This document shows, piece after piece, positions 3,784 through 12,255 of a DNA stretch of 64,000 nt. Both the position numbers and the translations under genes were made by a program. Location: positions 1,302,001-1,366,000 of the forward strand of contig CP102405.1 in NCBI GenBank assembly GCA_024628785.1. The letters are read 5' to 3'. Every line of letters begins with the position of its first letter. Positions within the stretch are counted from its first letter, which is position 1. The notes under the pieces were generated by a model that was not told where the DNA came from, searched no databases, and was given only the letters and a program-made list of their open reading frames with translations. The DNA is from Fusobacteria bacterium ZRK30 (lineage in GTDB: Bacteria > Fusobacteriota > Fusobacteriia > Fusobacteriales > Fusobacteriaceae).

Positions 3784-4611
3784 TTAATTTAATATTGGAA
3801 TAATTTCTTCCAACACCTCGATTTTTTCCTTCTCCTCTATATACATCTCATCGGTGACTATAGATTCTTTATTACTAATTTTTTCCCGGAGATATTTTAT
3901 CTCATCTTCACTTTGTTTCACATAAACGGGATCAGCCTGGCTTCCCTTTGGAATGACACTGGATAATCTTTTACTTACGAGAGCCATCTCTGGGGCCAGC
4001 TCATGATCAAATCCTGCAATAGTTGCAAACTTTATCCCTTGATGGACAGCTATATCTATTCCTGCCTGAGTCATACCATCATTTAATTGATCGGAGTCAC
4101 CATTGACTGCTCCACTAATAGTATCCAGTGCCGAGGTGACTCCAAAATATTTGATAGCGACCCTGATTGGTTTTACCCATACTAATTTTTCAAAATTATA
4201 GAGGAAAAAAGTTCCTTTGACAGACCGGGTATGATAGTAGGGATAGGTCATAAAATCTAACTCATCCAAGTCTATATACAAGAGGCCGTCTACCCCTAAA
4301 ATTTCAGCTAATTCGATAGGTCTTAAAAATTTTAATTGTCCCCCGTCTGTTATACCTGCTTCATTTAGGAGTTCATCGGTTTTTTTTATATCCTGGATAT
4401 CGTATCCACGATTATTCTGTTCAAAATTATTATAAACTACCCCTCGGAAGATAAATCCTCCAGCTACATCATTTGTGTTATTATTTATGGGTAAGATCGC
4501 CAATTTAGCTGGTGATATTGAGGGAGTAGCTTTTAATACAAAATCTTCTTTTGGTGTACAACCTATAAATATTAAGAGAATAAATAATAAAAATAACTTA
4601 TACCTCTTCAT
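3784..4611 (-). CDS. DUF799 / GNA1162-family lipoprotein
   Basis: A predicted outer-membrane lipoprotein of 275 residues. A lysine-start signal peptide ends in lipobox IFIGC (Cys18). The body matches the DUF799 (GNA1162-like) type: KLAILPINNNTNDVAGG, EAGITDGGQL, ILGVDGLLYIDLDEL and a late DHELAPEMA stretch. About 60 C-terminal residues after the domain are charged and predicted coiled (DEIKYLREKISNKES). In Neisseria this family is encoded with a CsgG-like lipoprotein, as here, where the CsgG gene ends 1 base upstream. The two probably work together in envelope assembly or secretion; the function is unknown. Confidence 0.85.
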   Translation of the reverse strand: MKRYKLFLLFILLIFIGCTPKEDFVLKATPSISPAKLAILPINNNTNDVAGGFIFRGVVYNNFEQNNRGYDIQDIKKTDELLNEAGITDGGQLKFLRPIELAEILGVDGLLYIDLDELDFMTYPYYHTRSVKGTFFLYNFEKLVWVKPIRVAIKYFGVTSALDTISGAVNGDSDQLNDGMTQAGIDIAVHQGIKFATIAGFDHELAPEMALVSKRLSSVIPKGSQADPVYVKQSEDEIKYLREKISNKESIVTDEMYIEEKEKIEVLEEIIPILN

Positions 4612-4612
4612 A

Positions 4613-5530
4613 CTACTTCATCAACTTTACTACGCCAGGAATATTGAAAGTTTCCCCTTTATACTCTAAGATAGCAGCATCTTCACCTAGATAATCTACT
4701 ACCTTTGCTTCTCCTACTTTATTCTCTTCAAATCCTAAGAATTTGCCGTTGAATTCGATTTTTTCTCCCTGTTTATAGACACCTAATTTTGTACCTATTT
4801 CTACATTACTTTTTTGACCTGCATTGATATAAAGTTTATTTCCAGAGACCTTAGCTACATTTGCCATCCAAGGTGTTTTATCGACAGTTTTTATAATGTT
4901 GTCCATAACGTTTATAGCTGCGGCTCTAAAGGCTTCTTGTTCTAGGCCTTCATCATATCCACCTGTACTCCCTATACCTAAAGTAGTTCCATACTCAACG
5001 TCTGAGACACCCTCTCCTTGATCAGAGAGAACTACTTCTCCAGTTCTTACATTTATCATCTTCATGTCAAATGAGATCTCGGCTCTTTGAGTTTTGCTGC
5101 TAGAAACGATCCCTTTATTTCCAGTTGTATTTACGGAATATTTAGTGATCGCACCTGTTATAACATAGTCTGCATCCTGGAACTTTCTTTCAGATGCTAA
5201 CTGCCCCTGTCCCAGAGTATTAGAAAAATTAATCTCCTGCATTACTTTAGATAGATCTTCCCTCTCTAAAACAATAAATCTGTTACTTTTTACCAGTTCT
5301 GTAGTGATAACATCAGTTAAGCTGCTTCCCAATCTTCTGCTGCCAAATCTAGTCTGATTCTTAAACTCAGCTATGACAACTTTTCTCTTAGGAGATACTA
5401 CCCCTTGTACAGAATCGTAATCTCTCATACTTTGGATCTTATCATCTTTCCTTACATTAGATACACCATCGTTAGAACAAGCACCTAGTGTCAATGCTAA
5501 TAGAGCAACTATTAATAGTTTTTTTTTCAT
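4613..5530 (-). CDS. CsgG/HfaB-family outer-membrane lipoprotein
   Basis: A 305-residue lipoprotein (lipobox TLGAC, Cys18) with a CsgG-type fold: KVVIAEFKNQTRFGSRRLGSSLTDVITTELVKS, FIVLEREDLSKVMQE and ADYVITGAITKYS. The glycine-rich stretch at about 180-195 (GTTLGIGSTGGYDEG) is where CsgG-like proteins have a transmembrane hairpin. About 80 extra C-terminal residues (VSGNKLYINAGQKSNVEIGTK onward) resemble a small beta-barrel domain like the one at the end of FlgT. Its start overlaps the nrnA stop by one base (TAATG). No curli subunit genes are present, so a role in curli export is not implied. Confidence 0.87.
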   Translation of the reverse strand: MKKKLLIVALLALTLGACSNDGVSNVRKDDKIQSMRDYDSVQGVVSPKRKVVIAEFKNQTRFGSRRLGSSLTDVITTELVKSNRFIVLEREDLSKVMQEINFSNTLGQGQLASERKFQDADYVITGAITKYSVNTTGNKGIVSSSKTQRAEISFDMKMINVRTGEVVLSDQGEGVSDVEYGTTLGIGSTGGYDEGLEQEAFRAAAINVMDNIIKTVDKTPWMANVAKVSGNKLYINAGQKSNVEIGTKLGVYKQGEKIEFNGKFLGFEENKVGEAKVVDYLGEDAAILEYKGETFNIPGVVKLMK

Positions 5531-6543
5531 TATTTGCCTCCTGAACTCATATTTTTAATTATTATATCCAATATTTCATGGGAACTTTTGTCGGTTTTAA
5601 ATCCAGCAGCCTTAATATGACCACCGCCTCCGAAAAGACCTGCCAAAGCATTTACATCTACAGCGTATTTAGATCTGAAACTCCCCTTGATATGACCCTT
5701 ATCCTCTTTGAGAAAGAGGGATACACTTGCATCTTCATATGAAAGAAGAAGTTCTCCTAAACCACTGGTATCATCTTTACCAGCCCCTAATTCAGCTAGT
5801 TCTGTCTCACTAATATAATAGTACACCAACTTCAGATTATCTACAAATTTAAAGTCAGACAGAACTCTTCCTGTTAACTTTAATTTCCCCATAGATTTAG
5901 TATTGAAAAAATTCTTTATAACTTCATTTGGTTCTACCCCATATTCCACTAATTCGGAAGCTATTCTAAAGACCTTCTTAGTAGTGTTTGAATGTTTAAA
6001 ATTACCGGTATCATTTACTATTCCTGTGTAGAGAGATTCTGCTATCCCATGGTCTAGTTCAATCCCAGCCTCTTTGATAAAATCGAATAAAATTTCCGAA
6101 GTAGATGAAATATCTCCAACATAGTTATAGTCTCCAAACCTGTCATTGCTGATATGGTGATCGATATTTATAACTTTAGTATCTTCACCCTTTAATTCTC
6201 CTACCCTTCCAATTCTGTCAAAATTACCACTGTCAAGGCAGATCATAAGATCAAAATCATATTTTGAGTTATAGTTTTCAAATTCTTCGATTAGAATAGA
6301 GTGGGTTAAAAACTTTAAATTTTTAGGAGTTTTATCATCTAAAATAAACCTTAAAGTTTTATCTAAATAGATTTCACCTTTCTCTTCAGTTTCTTTTCTC
6401 AAAGTTTCATTTAATTTGTTGAGAGCTAAAAGGAGAGCCAAACCACTTCCTATAGCATCTCCATCAGGGCTGGTATGTCCTGTAATTAATATTCTGTTAC
6501 TTTTTTTTATAACTTCTAATATATTACTAAACTTATTGTTCAT
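5530..6543 (-). CDS. nrnA: DHH/DHHA1 phosphoesterase, NrnA-like nanoRNase/pAp phosphatase
   Basis: NrnA-type enzymes degrade very short RNAs and dephosphorylate pAp (3'-phosphoadenosine 5'-phosphate). The 337-residue sequence has motif I TGHTSPDGDAIGSGLAL, the DSGNFDRIG metal site, DHH in NIDHHISNDRFGDYNYV, and TGIVNDTGNFKHSNT. The DHHA1 domain ends in FGGGGHIKAAGF, the RNA-binding GGGH motif. It overlaps folK-tudS by 11 bases upstream and csgG by one base downstream, so it is translationally coupled in the run. Compared with typical members of about 320 residues there is a short insertion near residue 45. Confidence 0.9.
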   Translation of the reverse strand: MNNKFSNILEVIKKSNRILITGHTSPDGDAIGSGLALLLALNKLNETLRKETEEKGEIYLDKTLRFILDDKTPKNLKFLTHSILIEEFENYNSKYDFDLMICLDSGNFDRIGRVGELKGEDTKVINIDHHISNDRFGDYNYVGDISSTSEILFDFIKEAGIELDHGIAESLYTGIVNDTGNFKHSNTTKKVFRIASELVEYGVEPNEVIKNFFNTKSMGKLKLTGRVLSDFKFVDNLKLVYYYISETELAELGAGKDDTSGLGELLLSYEDASVSLFLKEDKGHIKGSFRSKYAVDVNALAGLFGGGGHIKAAGFKTDKSSHEILDIIIKNMSSGGK

Positions 6544-7426
6544 CCTTGTTCACCTCGATTATGTCTATTCCTTTCAGCAGAAGTTTGTCTGCTGTCATTC
6601 CATTTCCGGGAATGATATTCCTCTTAAAAGTTCCATCATATATAGTATCTATTCCACAAGACGGGCTTTTTCCTTTTAATAGTGCAAGTTTTATATCATT
6701 TTTTAATGCTTTTTCCAGAGCTTTTTCTGCTCCTTTCTCAAATTCATCGGTGACGTCTATACCTTCAACATTTATTACTCTATCACCGTTTCTTTCAGCG
6801 GGCAGGCGGGGGATACTAAGCCCTCCCTCTACTTCTGGACAAGTTTCTACAAATTCAAATCTGTCCTTTAGAAGTTCAGCTACAATATAATTATAATTAG
6901 CTGAACCTTTATATGAAGTTTTTTTCCCAACAAGACAACTGCTGATTAGGAGTTTTTCTTTTTTCTGAACTCTGACACTTTTATCGTTATAATCTATGAT
7001 AGATCTGATGTAGCCTCTATCTCTAATAACGTCTAAAAGAGGGATCAGAACAAAATTTCTTTCCTTATATCTAGGATGAGGTATAACTAAATCCTTATTA
7101 TTCAGCTTGAGATTTCCAAAGGATATAATATCTATATCTAAAGTTCTAGGACCCCACCTGAATTTTCGGACCCTCTTTAACTTTAACTCTATCCTTTGAA
7201 GTTCTCTCAAAAGTTCATAGGGAAGCAGCTGGGTTTTTATCTCAATTGCACAATTTAAAAATTTATCTTGATCTAAGTATCCTACTGGGTCTGTTGAATA
7301 AAATTTTGAAATAGCAGTGACTTTAGTTTTTTTTAGTTGAGATATAGCAAAAATACCTCCTAAAAGATAGTAATATTTATTTCCTATATTAGATCCCATA
7401 CTGAGATAAACTCTAGTCCATCTCAT
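6533..7426 (-). CDS. folK: Fusion: HPPK (FolK) with a DUF523/TudS thiouracil-desulfurase domain
   Basis: Residues 1 to about 150 are 6-hydroxymethyl-7,8-dihydropterin pyrophosphokinase: YLSMGSNIGNK, FYSTDPVGYLDQDKFLNCA, FRWGPRTLDIDIISFG and HPRYKERNFVLIPL, covering the pterin and ATP/Mg sites. Residues from about 155 to 293 are a DUF523 domain, the family of the iron-sulfur 2-thiouracil desulfurase TudS, with three conserved Cys in LLISSCLVGKKTSY, FVETCPEVEGGLSIPR and GKSPSCG. Both halves look complete. The gene overlaps folB by 14 bases and nrnA by 11. The N-terminal step (dihydropterin diphosphate synthesis) follows FolB directly; why a desulfurase is attached is unknown. Confidence 0.9.
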   Translation of the reverse strand: MRWTRVYLSMGSNIGNKYYYLLGGIFAISQLKKTKVTAISKFYSTDPVGYLDQDKFLNCAIEIKTQLLPYELLRELQRIELKLKRVRKFRWGPRTLDIDIISFGNLKLNNKDLVIPHPRYKERNFVLIPLLDVIRDRGYIRSIIDYNDKSVRVQKKEKLLISSCLVGKKTSYKGSANYNYIVAELLKDRFEFVETCPEVEGGLSIPRLPAERNGDRVINVEGIDVTDEFEKGAEKALEKALKNDIKLALLKGKSPSCGIDTIYDGTFKRNIIPGNGMTADKLLLKGIDIIEVNKDEQ

Positions 7427-7787
7427 AATTTTTAGCCTCTCTGGTTATTGCTACTCCTACATAGTCAAAACTTCCATTTATAGGAGCGCCAGGTTTTCTA
7501 ATCTCTACTTCGACCTTTTCTATACTGTATTTTACCAATAAAGTATGAGCAATCATCTCAGCTAAAGCTTCTATCAATTTAAATTTTTTATTCTTTATGA
7601 TATCTTCAACATCATAATATACATCTACATAGCTGATACTTTTATTTAGGTCATCTGTAAGACCTGCCCTTTGTAATGGTTTATATAGGGTTACATCAGC
7701 ATAAAAGTTTTGTCCCAGTATATTTTCCTCAGTTAAAGCACCGTGATATCCGTATGCCTTTATATTTTTTACTATTATTTTGTCCAT
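7413..7787 (-). CDS. folB: Dihydroneopterin aldolase
   Basis: FolB converts 7,8-dihydroneopterin to 6-hydroxymethyl-dihydropterin and glycolaldehyde, the step before FolK. The 124-residue length is standard. Signatures are IKAYGYHGALTEENILGQNFYADV, ISYVDVYYDVEDII, LIEALAEMIAHTLL and the C-terminal VEVEIRKPGAPINGSFDYVGVAITR with the conserved Lys and Pro. It is the first gene of the folB-folK-nrnA-csgG-DUF799-sepF run; GGAGG precedes the ATG. Confidence 0.96.
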   Translation of the reverse strand: MDKIIVKNIKAYGYHGALTEENILGQNFYADVTLYKPLQRAGLTDDLNKSISYVDVYYDVEDIIKNKKFKLIEALAEMIAHTLLVKYSIEKVEVEIRKPGAPINGSFDYVGVAITREAKNYEMD

Positions 7788-7876: not shown

Positions 7877-7907
7877 ACTGGATGCAACGTCACGTTGCTA
7901 ATCCAGT
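7877..7907. repeat. Dispersed palindromic repeat, copy 1
   Basis: The core GGATGCAACGTCACGTTGC is a palindrome. Here it is flanked by ACTGGAT and ATCCAGT, extending the hairpin. The repeat supplies the stop codon of the YitT gene (minus strand). Related copies lie at 25461, 29808, 38817 and 58348. Confidence 0.75.
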
Positions 7908-8767
7908 GATTTAAAACCCTCACCTAATACTTCATAAACTTCTGAGATGATTATAAAAGCACTTGGATCCACTTGTTTTATGAGAGCCTGAAGATCTCTG
8001 ATCTCCTTATTTTTCAAGACAGTCATAATCATTGATTTACTCTCATCTGTATAGAGTCCCTTAGCTGATACAGCTGTTCCGCCTTTTTTTATATCCTTTA
8101 ATATTATATCTCTTATAAATTCGTATTTATCACTTATAATATAGACCATCTTAGTGTATCCGACACCTTCAAAGATCTTATTGATAACTACGTTAGTTGT
8201 GAACATTGCGATGATTGCATACAATCCTTTTTCAATTCCAAAGATAGCGATTCCACTGGTTATAATAATAGTATCATTGATCATCATACAGTAACCCACT
8301 GGTATCTTAGTAATTTTATTGACCATCTGGGCTACAATATCTGTTCCCCCTGTGCTGCCACCAAATTTTAAAACCAGTCCCAGGCCTACTCCTAATAGAA
8401 TACCTCCAAAGAGTGGTGCCAATAAAAAATTACTCCCCTTTGTAAAATCTATTACGTTATCTATTCCTACAAGCTTTCTAAAAAGGTCTATATAAAATGA
8501 TAACATTATGATTCCAAACAATGTTTTTGCACCATACTCCTTACCAAAAGTTTTAACCCCTACTAAAAATAGAGGAATATTGATAAACAGCATACTGGTT
8601 CCAACAGATAGATTAAATGTATAGTATAGGATAGTTGCTATTCCTGTTACCCCGCCACTGACTATCTTTGCAGGTACGATAAATAACCCTATTCCTATTG
8701 CAGCTATAATAAGCCCTAAATTAATTACAAAATAATCTATTGCCAACGTTTTTACCTTTCTTTTCAT
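7898..8767 (-). CDS. YitT family membrane protein (DUF161/DUF2179)
   Basis: An integral membrane protein of 289 residues: about five or six hydrophobic helices (residues about 10-200) rich in Gly, with GLFIVPAKIVSGGVTGIATIL and GGSTGGTDIVAQMV motifs, then a cytosolic DUF2179 domain (about 205-289, VYIISDKYEFIRDIILKD ... GLYTDESKSMIMTVLK). The biochemical role of YitT proteins is not settled. It starts 26 bases after hprK and is probably in the same transcript. Its last codons run into the dispersed repeat. Confidence 0.9.
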   Translation of the reverse strand: MKRKVKTLAIDYFVINLGLIIAAIGIGLFIVPAKIVSGGVTGIATILYYTFNLSVGTSMLFINIPLFLVGVKTFGKEYGAKTLFGIIMLSFYIDLFRKLVGIDNVIDFTKGSNFLLAPLFGGILLGVGLGLVLKFGGSTGGTDIVAQMVNKITKIPVGYCMMINDTIIITSGIAIFGIEKGLYAIIAMFTTNVVINKIFEGVGYTKMVYIISDKYEFIRDIILKDIKKGGTAVSAKGLYTDESKSMIMTVLKNKEIRDLQALIKQVDPSAFIIISEVYEVLGEGFKSLD

Positions 8768-8793: not shown

Positions 8794-10698
8794 TTATATA
8801 AATTCTTGATGTCTTACTTTACCCTTGTATGCTTTTTCAGGATCATAACCATATTTTATAGCTATTAAGTTCATAATAGTAGTTTCTACCATGGTAGCAG
8901 CATTCCTTCCAGAACTTATATATAGTTCTGCATGGTCTACAGGATGACCTAAAACTTCGACTTCGATACCCTTAGAGGTAGAAGTTTTAGTCAGGTAATC
9001 ATCACTTTTCAATTCTTTCAGTTCTATGATTGCATCCAATCTTTTTTCTTTTCTTACAGATCCTAATCCATAAAGAGCTTTGATATCTATGATTCCGAGA
9101 CCTCTAAGTTCCATAAAATAAGGAATTTTATCGGCTTTTCCTATGACCATTCCACTGGGATGTTCATGGAAAGTTACTTTATCATCTGTAATCAATCTAT
9201 GTCCTCTATGAATTAACTCTAGAGCGGTTTCACTCTTACCAATTCCACTTTTACCAGTAAGGAGAACACCAAATCCAAACATCTCAACAAAAACTCCATG
9301 CATGGTGATTTTAGGAGCAAACTTTTTTTCTAAAAATTGGTTTAAATCTGCCGTTAGCTGGGTAGAAGTTTTATCAGAAAATAACATGATCTTCTTTTTT
9401 TCCCTGGATAGATCGATAAAACATTGTTCAATCTCATCTGCATCTGCTATTATCGTAGCAGGAAAGTCAAAATCAAAAAAATTGTTTAAATTTCTATATT
9501 TAACATCATCATCTAAACTCTTTAAAAAATTTAATTCTCCTTGGGAAAATAGTTGTAAACTCTTAGAACCATTTTGATAAAACACTTCATAAAATCCAGA
9601 AAGTGCCAAAGCAGGGTTGTGAAGTGCAGTCTTAGTTATATAAGTTGTTTCTAAAAATTCCTCTCCTGTAATAACTTTTAGATCAAATTCCTCGACTATT
9701 TTTTTTACTGTCAAAATATTTTTATTCATCTTATCACCTTTCTTATTCTCTTTATTAAAAGCGATCATTTTTTTAGTTTCCTCTAAAAAATATTCAGAAG
9801 AATTCATTCCAATTTGTTTCAACCTTTCGTTTATAGCTGCCGTTTCAATGATTACAGCTAGATTTCTTCCTCTTCGTACAGGAAGACTTAGCTTAGGAAT
9901 TTGAACTCCCAGGATCTCTTCGAATTGTTTATCGATTCCCAATCTGTCATAAAATTTTCTTTTATCCCATTTCTCCAGGTTGATATATAGGTTTATTTCC
10001 TTAGTTCTCCGAGTTGCAATGATCCCATAGTTATTGGTAATATCTATATTTTCACTGCCTGTTCCCAGATAAAAATGTGTTTTAACGTTACTCTTATCAA
10101 AACCATTTTCTCCTAAGAGGATATCGGGCCCGATTTTTTTAATGATTAAATTTTCATCTGTAATATATTTGTGGCCCCTTTCGATTAATTCCAGGGTAGA
10201 TCCAATTCTTGCATCCTCATAACCGCCTATCAAAACACCTATTCCTAGGATTTCGATTAAAACATGATCCTCTACCCTTATTTCAGGTGCTAATTTTCTT
10301 TGGAGATAATATTTTAATTTCCTTATGATAACTGCAGTTTTATTTTTAGTAGTCAAAAGAGGTTTATTGTGTTTTTTAGCATATTCTATGAAATCAGGAT
10401 GGATGTCCTTATCACAGGCTACGATGATACAAGGGAAATTATAGGAAAAATATTTTTTTAGTCTGTCCTTTCTCACTTCTGAGGAGAGGGAATCAATATA
10501 CCTCATCTCCTCTGTTCCCAAAACGTGTAGCTGCTTATTGAGTTCATCTCCCTCGACTAAAAACCCGGTTAATTCAGCTCCTACTCTATGCACTGTAGGG
10601 AGTAAGATCTTTCTTTCTAGATTATCTAATCCCCCATAGATTACAGTGAATTCAAAAGCTTTTACTAATTTTGATAATCTTACAAATTTTTTAATCAT
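8794..10698 (-). CDS. hprK: Tandem HPr kinase/phosphorylase with a degenerate N-terminal copy
   Basis: HprK/P phosphorylates and dephosphorylates HPr on Ser46 in carbon catabolite control; the usual length is about 310. This protein has 634 residues and two full-length copies. The C-terminal copy (324-634) looks active: P-loop GKSGIGKS (482-489), HRLITDD, and the signature around FMELRGLGIIDIKALYG. In the N-terminal copy (1-323) the P-loop has become GGYEDARIGST (158-168), the DD pair is DE, and the signature loop is replaced (HFYLGTGSENIDITN), so it should not bind ATP normally. Codon 324 is an ATG with its own Shine-Dalgarno. The gene follows the one-TM protein gene by 35 bases. No ptsH is in the window. 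Confidence 0.93.
   Translation of the reverse strand: MIKKFVRLSKLVKAFEFTVIYGGLDNLERKILLPTVHRVGAELTGFLVEGDELNKQLHVLGTEEMRYIDSLSSEVRKDRLKKYFSYNFPCIIVACDKDIHPDFIEYAKKHNKPLLTTKNKTAVIIRKLKYYLQRKLAPEIRVEDHVLIEILGIGVLIGGYEDARIGSTLELIERGHKYITDENLIIKKIGPDILLGENGFDKSNVKTHFYLGTGSENIDITNNYGIIATRRTKEINLYINLEKWDKRKFYDRLGIDKQFEEILGVQIPKLSLPVRRGRNLAVIIETAAINERLKQIGMNSSEYFLEETKKMIAFNKENKKGDKMNKNILTVKKIVEEFDLKVITGEEFLETTYITKTALHNPALALSGFYEVFYQNGSKSLQLFSQGELNFLKSLDDDVKYRNLNNFFDFDFPATIIADADEIEQCFIDLSREKKKIMLFSDKTSTQLTADLNQFLEKKFAPKITMHGVFVEMFGFGVLLTGKSGIGKSETALELIHRGHRLITDDKVTFHEHPSGMVIGKADKIPYFMELRGLGIIDIKALYGLGSVRKEKRLDAIIELKELKSDDYLTKTSTSKGIEVEVLGHPVDHAELYISSGRNAATMVETTIMNLIAIKYGYDPEKAYKGKVRHQEFI
9727..9741 (-). 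promoter_or_regulatory. Internal ribosome-binding site and start codon inside hprK
   Basis: On the minus strand AAAGGTGAT (9733-9741) precedes an in-frame ATG (9729-9727). This would allow separate synthesis of the catalytic C-terminal HprK copy (311 residues, the normal family length). Confidence 0.55.
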
Positions 10699-10974: not shown

Positions 10975-12207
10975 CTACCTCATTTGAATAGTTTTTTTGA
11001 ATTTGGATAACAAATAAAATGATCCGCAGATAACAATAATTTTATTTGTTTTTTTAGCTAGGTCAAAAGCTTTCATGAGATTATCTTCTACTATTTGATC
11101 TTTAAAATCAGGTACTAGATCTACTAATTCACTTCCTGAAGTCCCCCTATGAAAATCCTCTAATGATGTAAATATTATCTCATCACTAAATTTTGAAATT
11201 TCCTCTAGGATACCATCTCTGTCTTTATCTTCTAAGATAGAGACCAAAGTAACGATATCTCCCTTTCTATATTTAGATAAGATATTTTCCTTTAATCTAG
11301 ATGCAGCATCTACATTATGAGCACCGTCTAATATTATGATTGGATCCTCTTTGGAATAGATCTCAAACCTGCCAGGCCAAGAAACTTTAGATACTGCATC
11401 CTGTATATTTTGATCTGGTATTCCTATTTTTTTTAAGGCTTCATATGCTCCTAAAAAATTATTTATTTGATACTCTCCATAAAGAGACAGGTTAAATTCC
11501 ATATTATCTATATAAATTTTAGTTTTAAAATCTTCTGTCAGTTCAAATTTTACATCACCATATTTTTTTATCACATCAACATAGTCTTTAGTTTTTTCCT
11601 CAACAGCTGCTATTAATTCTGGTTTAGAATCAGCAACTATAACAGGGCTGTCTTTGATAATACCACATTTTTCAAAAGCTATATCATTCAGATTATCACC
11701 TAAAATATTTACATGATCCATGGATATATTGGTGATTATAGAAATTTCAGGATGACAAACATTGGTTGCATCAAAACGGCCTCCTAAACCGGTCTCTAAA
11801 ACCACATATTCACAGCCGCAATCTTTAAAGTAATCAAACATCATTGCAGTAGTGATCTCAAAGAAGGTTGGATGTAGATCATTGACTTCAATTAAGGTTC
11901 TTATTCTTTTATAGTAGGAGCATATTCTTTCATCTGATATTTGTTCCCTATCTACTACAATTCTTTCATTGAATTTTTCAATATGAGGTGAGGTATACTT
12001 TCCTACCTTATAACCTGCTTCTAATAGGCTGGCTTCTAAAATACTTGCTGTAGACCCCTTACCATTGGTTCCTGCAATGTGCAGGATTTTATAGCTGTCC
12101 TGGGGGTTTCCCATTAATTTTAATATATTTTTTATATTGTCTAGTCCCAACTTTATTCCCATATTAGTAAGGGAGTAAAGTTCTTCTAAGGTTTTATCTA
12201 TATTCAT
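10975..12207 (-). CDS. folC: Folylpolyglutamate/dihydrofolate synthase
   Basis: FolC adds glutamate to dihydropteroate and folates with ATP. The protein has the Mur-ligase-like P-loop HIAGTNGKGSTAS, YTSPHIEKFNERI, ETGLGGRFDATNV, ITNISMDHVNILG and WPGRFEI with DGAHN near residue 300. I place the start at the ATG of MNIDKTLEE, because AAGGAAGT sits 6 bases before it; an in-frame ATG 30 bases upstream would make a 420-residue protein but lacks such a site. mtnN lies just upstream and the small TM gene just downstream. Confidence 0.93.
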   Translation of the reverse strand: MNIDKTLEELYSLTNMGIKLGLDNIKNILKLMGNPQDSYKILHIAGTNGKGSTASILEASLLEAGYKVGKYTSPHIEKFNERIVVDREQISDERICSYYKRIRTLIEVNDLHPTFFEITTAMMFDYFKDCGCEYVVLETGLGGRFDATNVCHPEISIITNISMDHVNILGDNLNDIAFEKCGIIKDSPVIVADSKPELIAAVEEKTKDYVDVIKKYGDVKFELTEDFKTKIYIDNMEFNLSLYGEYQINNFLGAYEALKKIGIPDQNIQDAVSKVSWPGRFEIYSKEDPIIILDGAHNVDAASRLKENILSKYRKGDIVTLVSILEDKDRDGILEEISKFSDEIIFTSLEDFHRGTSGSELVDLVPDFKDQIVEDNLMKAFDLAKKTNKIIVICGSFYLLSKFKKTIQMR

Positions 12208-12255
12208 AATTTGACTTCCTTTCAACTGTTTTGTCATGAATTATACAAATTAAAA

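Follow-up and report, generated by a model that had tools for sequence, protein, structure and literature searches.

A folK::tudS gene fusion in Fusobacteriota joins the folate enzyme HPPK to a TudS-family domain

The window analysed here is a stretch of 64,000 nucleotides from Fusobacteria bacterium ZRK30. It carries a gene, folK::tudS, in which HPPK (FolK) runs on in the same frame into a TudS domain (Table 1). The parts of this fusion are ordinary, and their combination is unusual. The original prediction placed HPPK and TudS/DUF523 together in a single open reading frame at 6533-7426; the frame lies on the minus strand, and both domains indeed score above their curated cut-offs. The predicted overlaps with folB (7413-7426) and with the nrnA-like gene (6533-6543) are also present.

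Table 1. Features of the folK::tudS locus; positions are those of the window.
Feature	Position	Strand	Description
folK::tudS fusion gene	6533..7426	-	297 aa, ATG start, no internal stops
HPPK (FolK) half	6962..7426	-	aa 1-155; Pfam, NCBIfam and fold match
TudS (PF04463) half	6533..6961	-	aa 156-297; Pfam, alignment and fold match
C164 codon	6935..6937	-	equivalent to cluster ligand Cys10 of TudS_A
C196 codon	6839..6841	-	equivalent to cluster ligand Cys43 of TudS_A
C257 codon	6656..6658	-	equivalent to cluster ligand Cys104 of TudS_A
folB, dihydroneopterin aldolase	7413..7787	-	PF02152 1.2e-34, TIGR00525 above cut-off; 14-base overlap with fusion gene
nrnA-like DHH/DHHA1 phosphoesterase	5530..6543	-	PF01368 and PF02272 above cut-off; 11-base overlap with end of fusion gene
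yitT-family membrane protein, conserved neighbour	7898..8767	-	PF02588 7.3e-57
hprK, duplicated HPr kinase/phosphatase, conserved neighbour	8794..10698	-	domain matches and gene order
folC, same cluster	10975..12237	-	TIGR01499 344 bits, cut-off 162.65; upstream of hprK

The assignment of the two halves is supported by independent profile collections. In Pfam, HPPK (PF01288) matches residues 7-133 of the fusion protein (1e-36; 126.3 bits against a gathering score of 25.7), and 2-thiour_desulf (PF04463), the family formerly called DUF523, matches residues 160-291 (2.7e-38; 131.6 bits against 34.7), with the TudS half covering positions 2-138 of the 141 in the profile. The NCBIfam folK model TIGR01498 scores 142.7 bits, the cut-off being 54.1. 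These two families are the sole Pfam matches at E 0.001, and DUF1722 is not among them. The genome of the window has a single HPPK and a single TudS, both encoded by the fusion gene. Between the halves, a linker at residues 137-157 is variable in a 16-row alignment.

An AlphaFold model of the fusion protein, built with an alignment of 16 fusions (A1), has a mean pLDDT of 90.5 and a pTM of 0.90. Residues 2-155 of the model match the HPPK structure 4crj (Z 25.4, 153 residues, rmsd 1.5, 40% identity), and residues 157-296 match the TudS structure 6z93_A (Z 23.2, 140 residues, rmsd 2.4, 40% identity). The gene is one intact frame, and its product is predicted to hold two complete folds, end to end. 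On the pTM value, the model confidently puts the halves in a fixed, compact relative placement.

Both halves keep their catalytic residues, as had been predicted. In the HPPK half, R85, R87, W91, R94, D97, D99, H117 and R123 are invariant across the 16 aligned fusions. In a mapping of our own, with E. coli residue numbers taken from PDB titles, the E. coli residues R82, W89, R92, D95, D97 and H115 correspond to R85, W91, R94, D97, D99 and H117, all of them invariant in the 16 fusions. In the TudS half, the three DUF523 cysteines C164, C196 and C257 are invariant in 16 of 16 fusions together with E198, S254 and S256, the last three aligning with Glu45, Ser101 and Ser103 of TudS_A. The available text of PMC10611767 gives Cys10, Cys43 and Cys104 as the cluster ligands of TudS_A and has Tyr18, Pro102 and Tyr110 sandwiching the docked nucleoside; the equivalents of these last residues, Y172, P255 and Y263, are kept in the fusions.

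Fused and single-domain TudS differ at several positions between 171 and 181, and positions 181, 190 and 192 hold more hydrophobic residues in fused than in single-domain TudS. Combined with the pTM of 0.90, the latter suggests a packed contact between the domains. Such a contact, the compact model and the predicted cluster with its exposed iron would suit a regulatory coupling, in which the Fe-S half acts as a sensor of oxygen, sulfide or thionucleotides and tunes HPPK activity, making folate synthesis track the sulfur or oxygen status of the cell. We consider this unlikely. Positions 190 and 192 lie within a strand of the model and may belong to the core instead of a contact, and all desulfuration residues are invariant, which is beyond the needs of a sensor. 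Additionally, TudS activity is redox-independent and not inhibited by sulfide, as far as the available text of PMC10611767 goes.

The surroundings of the gene are conserved too. At all 15 fusion loci with flanking sequence (15 of the 19 genomes that carry the fusion), folB lies directly upstream and the nrnA-like gene directly downstream. Further upstream, hprK is found at 15 of 15 loci, split over three frames in L066, and yitT at 14 of 15; in L071 its place is taken by a gene which we take to be PHP-like. An adjacent but unfused folK-tudS pair was not seen. All 19 fused genomes, that of the window included, have DHPS/folP, and the HPPK half therefore has a pathway to serve. The nrnA-like protein scores 108 bits against the NCBIfam NrnA model, whose cut-off is 350, so the name nrnA is likely and not certain. 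As a DHH/DHHA1 protein, this neighbour fits RNA turnover better than pterins.

Some minor features of these loci may be recorded here. The hprK product of the window has 634 aa with two matches each to the N- and C-terminal HPr-kinase domains, an apparent internal duplication, and hprK is of similar length at the other fused loci except for the broken copy in L066. Window positions 3784-5530 on the minus strand encode a CsgG-like protein (4613-5530) and then a weak GNA1162-like lipoprotein (3784-4611), a pair that follows the nrnA-like gene at the majority of fused loci. The DHPS of some fused genomes has about 404 aa (L202:3473-4687(-), L203:2920-4134(+), L205:3288-4499(-)), against about 277 aa in others; the longer frames have an extra N-terminal stretch of undefined kind.

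The fusion is real, old and conserved in three families. A census with the A1 profile at E 1e-58 found it in 19 of 98 Fusobacteriota genomes, in 9 of 29 genera and in the families f1, f2 and f3; the earlier concern that it might be unique to the assembly of the window does not hold. A frameshift hiding two genes had also been considered, and all 19 rows are free of internal stops, two of them (G061, G047) running off contig ends. With 19 genomes and no internal stop, an artefact of frameshift or misassembly is ruled out. Within the genus of the window, one genome without a fusion found (G060) is 76% complete, and it carries a 173-aa distant relative of PF04463 (L210:1057-1578(+); 21.6 bits against a gathering score of 34.7).

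Outside Fusobacteriota, the same query and cut-off, for which the 19 of 98 Fusobacteriota genomes serve as positive control, gave no fusion in samples of four other phyla, here named after their centre locus: 0 of 398 genomes in the phylum of L084 (Siminovitchia), 0 of 103 in that of L132 (Thermotogae), 0 of 398 in that of L143 (Legionella) and 0 of 198 in that of L150 (Deltaproteobacteria). A wide spread of the fusion beyond Fusobacteriota was thus not found in these samples at E 1e-58, with a profile that is blind to an independent fusion in reverse domain order. In the phylum of L080, whose sample looks to be the same 398 genomes as that of L084, the best match at E 0.001 was 1.7e-54, and none among the matches listed spanned both domains. 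A scan of genome contigs with an HPPK pattern gave, among at least 80 loci, L074 and L075 as fusions, both from Fusobacteriaceae and already counted. Among 137 matching plasmid records, none contained a match that spans 80% of the query.

HPPK takes other forms in related genomes. With the exception of G025, Fusobacteriota genomes that have HPPK give one HPPK match apiece. In most Fusobacteriaceae without the fusion, HPPK lies in frames of about 274-296 aa, and those inspected are FolB-FolK fusions, with folE and folP as neighbours in two of the loci by Pfam. The genus g2 holds one genome with folK::tudS and one with FolB-FolK; exchange or loss of these states has therefore taken place inside a single genus.

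Phylogeny points to a shared origin for the fused HPPKs. In a tree of 73 HPPK rows, all 19 fused rows group in one clade (100/99), set off by a branch in 99% of bootstrap trees, and the FolB-FolK HPPKs of the same family (26 folBK rows) stand separate from it; this tree took 23 chosen loci from the HPPK-pattern scan and 2 of the 10 loci from the search in the phylum of L080, and left out rows shorter than 110 residues and identical rows. In a TudS tree of 48 rows, from which the truncated rows L044 and L073 had been removed beforehand, the fused label needs 3 changes; the tree does not itself show a single clade, and the AU test does not reject one (p 0.237). There the G062 fusion adjoins single-domain rows, and two single-domain rows from g4 and one from G034 sit among the fused rows; in the g4 pair the TudS half may have separated again later. 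A single origin is the simplest reading. The fusion probably arose once, before several Fusobacteriota lineages diverged from a common ancestor; adjacent genes in the order folB-folK-tudS-nrnA would have been joined, and the joined gene would have replaced a separate tudS gene.

In eight close pairs, dN/dS ranges over 0.051-0.136 in the HPPK half and 0.121-0.200 in the TudS half. Both halves are thus under purifying selection, which is less strict on the TudS half. Neighbouring genes of an operon could have lost a stop codon and stayed joined without a selected advantage. Such an accident would differ from the reading favoured below, two independent enzymes in one chain, solely by giving the joint no importance of its own. 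The order of the neighbouring genes and the variable linker at residues 137-157 fit such an accident, and so do the FolB-FolK joints of other Fusobacteriaceae, which indicate that folate genes join easily in this group. However, 19 genomes from three families retain the fusion, its TudS half is under purifying selection, and an accident without advantage seems to us improbable. An internal start that would yield TudS on its own was also considered and is not general: in-frame ATG, GTG or TTG codons are missing from the 30 codons scanned before the TudS motif in 11 of 17 fusions.

An indication of what the TudS half does comes from genomes in which TudS stands on its own. By hand count, open frames of 144-165 aa above the cut-off, that is single-domain TudS, occur in 28 of 98 Fusobacteriota genomes: in 0 of the 19 with the fusion and in 28 of the 79 others, a count over related genomes and not over independent events. 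Since the two forms are never together in a genome, they seem to be alternatives for one job. Loci of single-domain tudS, 18 in all and drawn from 17 of the 28 genomes, lack folK, folB and the nrnA-like gene within five genes on either side. The job of TudS thus seems to need no folate neighbours, and the link to nrnA was seen with the fusion alone. Most likely, the TudS half does the work of an ordinary single-domain TudS, the salvage of 4-thiouridine nucleotides.

We therefore favour, as a rather probable reading that leaves considerable room for doubt, two independent enzymes in one chain, an HPPK and a housekeeping TudS desulfidase. The N-terminal half, as the only HPPK of the cell, would make 6-hydroxymethyl-dihydropterin diphosphate for folate. 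In the C-terminal half, the three cysteines would carry a [4Fe-4S] cluster. Its free iron would accept the sulfur from a base of the 4-thiouracil type, and Glu198 and Ser254/Ser256 would assist the water that takes the place of this sulfur. The likely substrate would be 4-thiouridine or its nucleotide from tRNA degradation, and the NrnA-like exonuclease next door could be among the sources of these mononucleotides. The original prediction had named 2-thiouracil as the substrate, a view that is now outdated: according to the available text of PMC10611767, 4-thio-UMP is the preferred substrate of TudS enzymes, and specific binding of 2-thiouracil is not seen. Its hint at a link between pterin synthesis and sulfur handling is unsupported, as the genome pattern of fused and single-domain TudS fits two separate jobs. 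Its remark that the domain pair was undescribed stands for the literature searched, where no discussion of DUF523/TudS paired with HPPK or folK was found; the pair may be listed by database annotators.

One residue counts against this two-enzyme explanation. In the available text of PMC10611767, Arg17 of TudS_A is docked against the phosphate of 4-thio-UMP. Its equivalent is Arg in none of the 19 fusions (S in 7, K in 7, N in 4, T in 1; S in the window), and in 31 single-domain rows it is R in 17, K in 11 and N in 3. Because 14 of 31 single-domain rows also do without Arg, it is no membership feature of TudS. The nucleotide preferred by the fusions may therefore differ from 4-thio-UMP.

The missing Arg is also the sole positive evidence for a thio-pterin substrate, which is possible and a long shot. 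The 2-amino-4-oxo ring of pterin resembles uracil. A retuned TudS half might strip the position-4 sulfur of a thio-pterin formed in sulfidic cells and pass the product to the attached HPPK; we hold this to be quite unlikely. The single covalent chain, the one HPPK clade, the confidence with which the model places the halves relative to each other (pTM 0.90), the differences at several positions of 171-181 and the presence of folB and folC in the cluster would all agree with it. Against it, the equivalents of the residues that hold the uracil nucleoside (Tyr18, Pro102, Tyr110) are kept, single-domain rows often lack the Arg as well, fused and single-domain TudS substitute for each other across genomes, and no thio-pterin paper was found in the literature searched. 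To our knowledge, TudS has no pterin substrate. A dedicated thio-pterin desulfidase of sulfide-rich anaerobes, repairing 4-thio-pterins or thio-GTP-derived pterin precursors and handing the repaired pterin to the attached HPPK, appears very improbable; if true, it would add a repair step to folate synthesis and a new class of substrate for Fe-S desulfidases.

Each half has known relatives. The fusion shares with HPPK (FolK; 4crj, 1cbk, 1hq2) the fold over residues 2-155 and the catalytic residues, but continues past the C-terminus of HPPK into TudS. FolB-FolK fusions (2cg8, and those of other Fusobacteriaceae) likewise join HPPK to a second enzyme in the same bacterial family; there, however, the partner is the previous enzyme of the pathway, attached at the other end, and the HPPK belongs to a separate clade. 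HPPK-DHPS fusions (4pzv, 3mcm, 2bmb, 7mpy) are bifunctional HPPK chains too, with HPPK ahead in 4pzv and 3mcm, and their DHPS uses the product of HPPK, unlike the TudS partner here. Single-domain TudS (PDB 6z92-6z96, 6zw9; PMC10611767, as far as its available text goes) shares the fold over residues 155-297, the three Cys, the Glu and the two Ser, whereas the fusion has HPPK in front and never an Arg at the Arg17 equivalent.

The closest precedent for an enlarged TudS is RudS (TudS-DUF1722), where, in the available text of PMC11417400, the added domain directs TudS to 4-thiouridine in whole tRNA; a fused domain can thus send TudS to a new substrate. In folK::tudS the added domain is an N-terminal HPPK, and a DUF1722 match is absent at E 0.001. 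The same partial text puts reported TudS sequences at 58.9% single-domain and 40.1% TudS-DUF1722, so that other architectures make up about 1% (PMC11417400). The fusion is another TudS architecture, present in three families and undiscussed in the literature searched, and through it an Fe-S enzyme becomes linked with an enzyme of the folate pathway in anaerobes. Most likely it packages two separate jobs and not a new sulfur-vitamin pathway.

Further TudS-family arrangements were seen in Fusobacteriota. Frames of 306-311 aa (L207:1093-2028(-), L208:1208-2128(+), L209:1474-2403(+)) represent a second architecture, with TudS in the first half and a second half that is not DUF1722, has no NCBIfam match and has no Pfam match except one below cut-off. 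Long TudS frames of 300-327 aa occur in several fused genomes as well; an identification of such frames as RudS was set aside, as the three tested have neither DUF1722 in Pfam nor an NCBIfam match. In the genera g5 and g25, single-domain tudS is preceded by a gene of 131-134 aa, with one frame of 180 aa (L171:6143-6538(+), and similar genes in L170, L172, L179-L181, L184 and L185). The copy in L171, the one scanned, is 4HBT_2 thioesterase-like.
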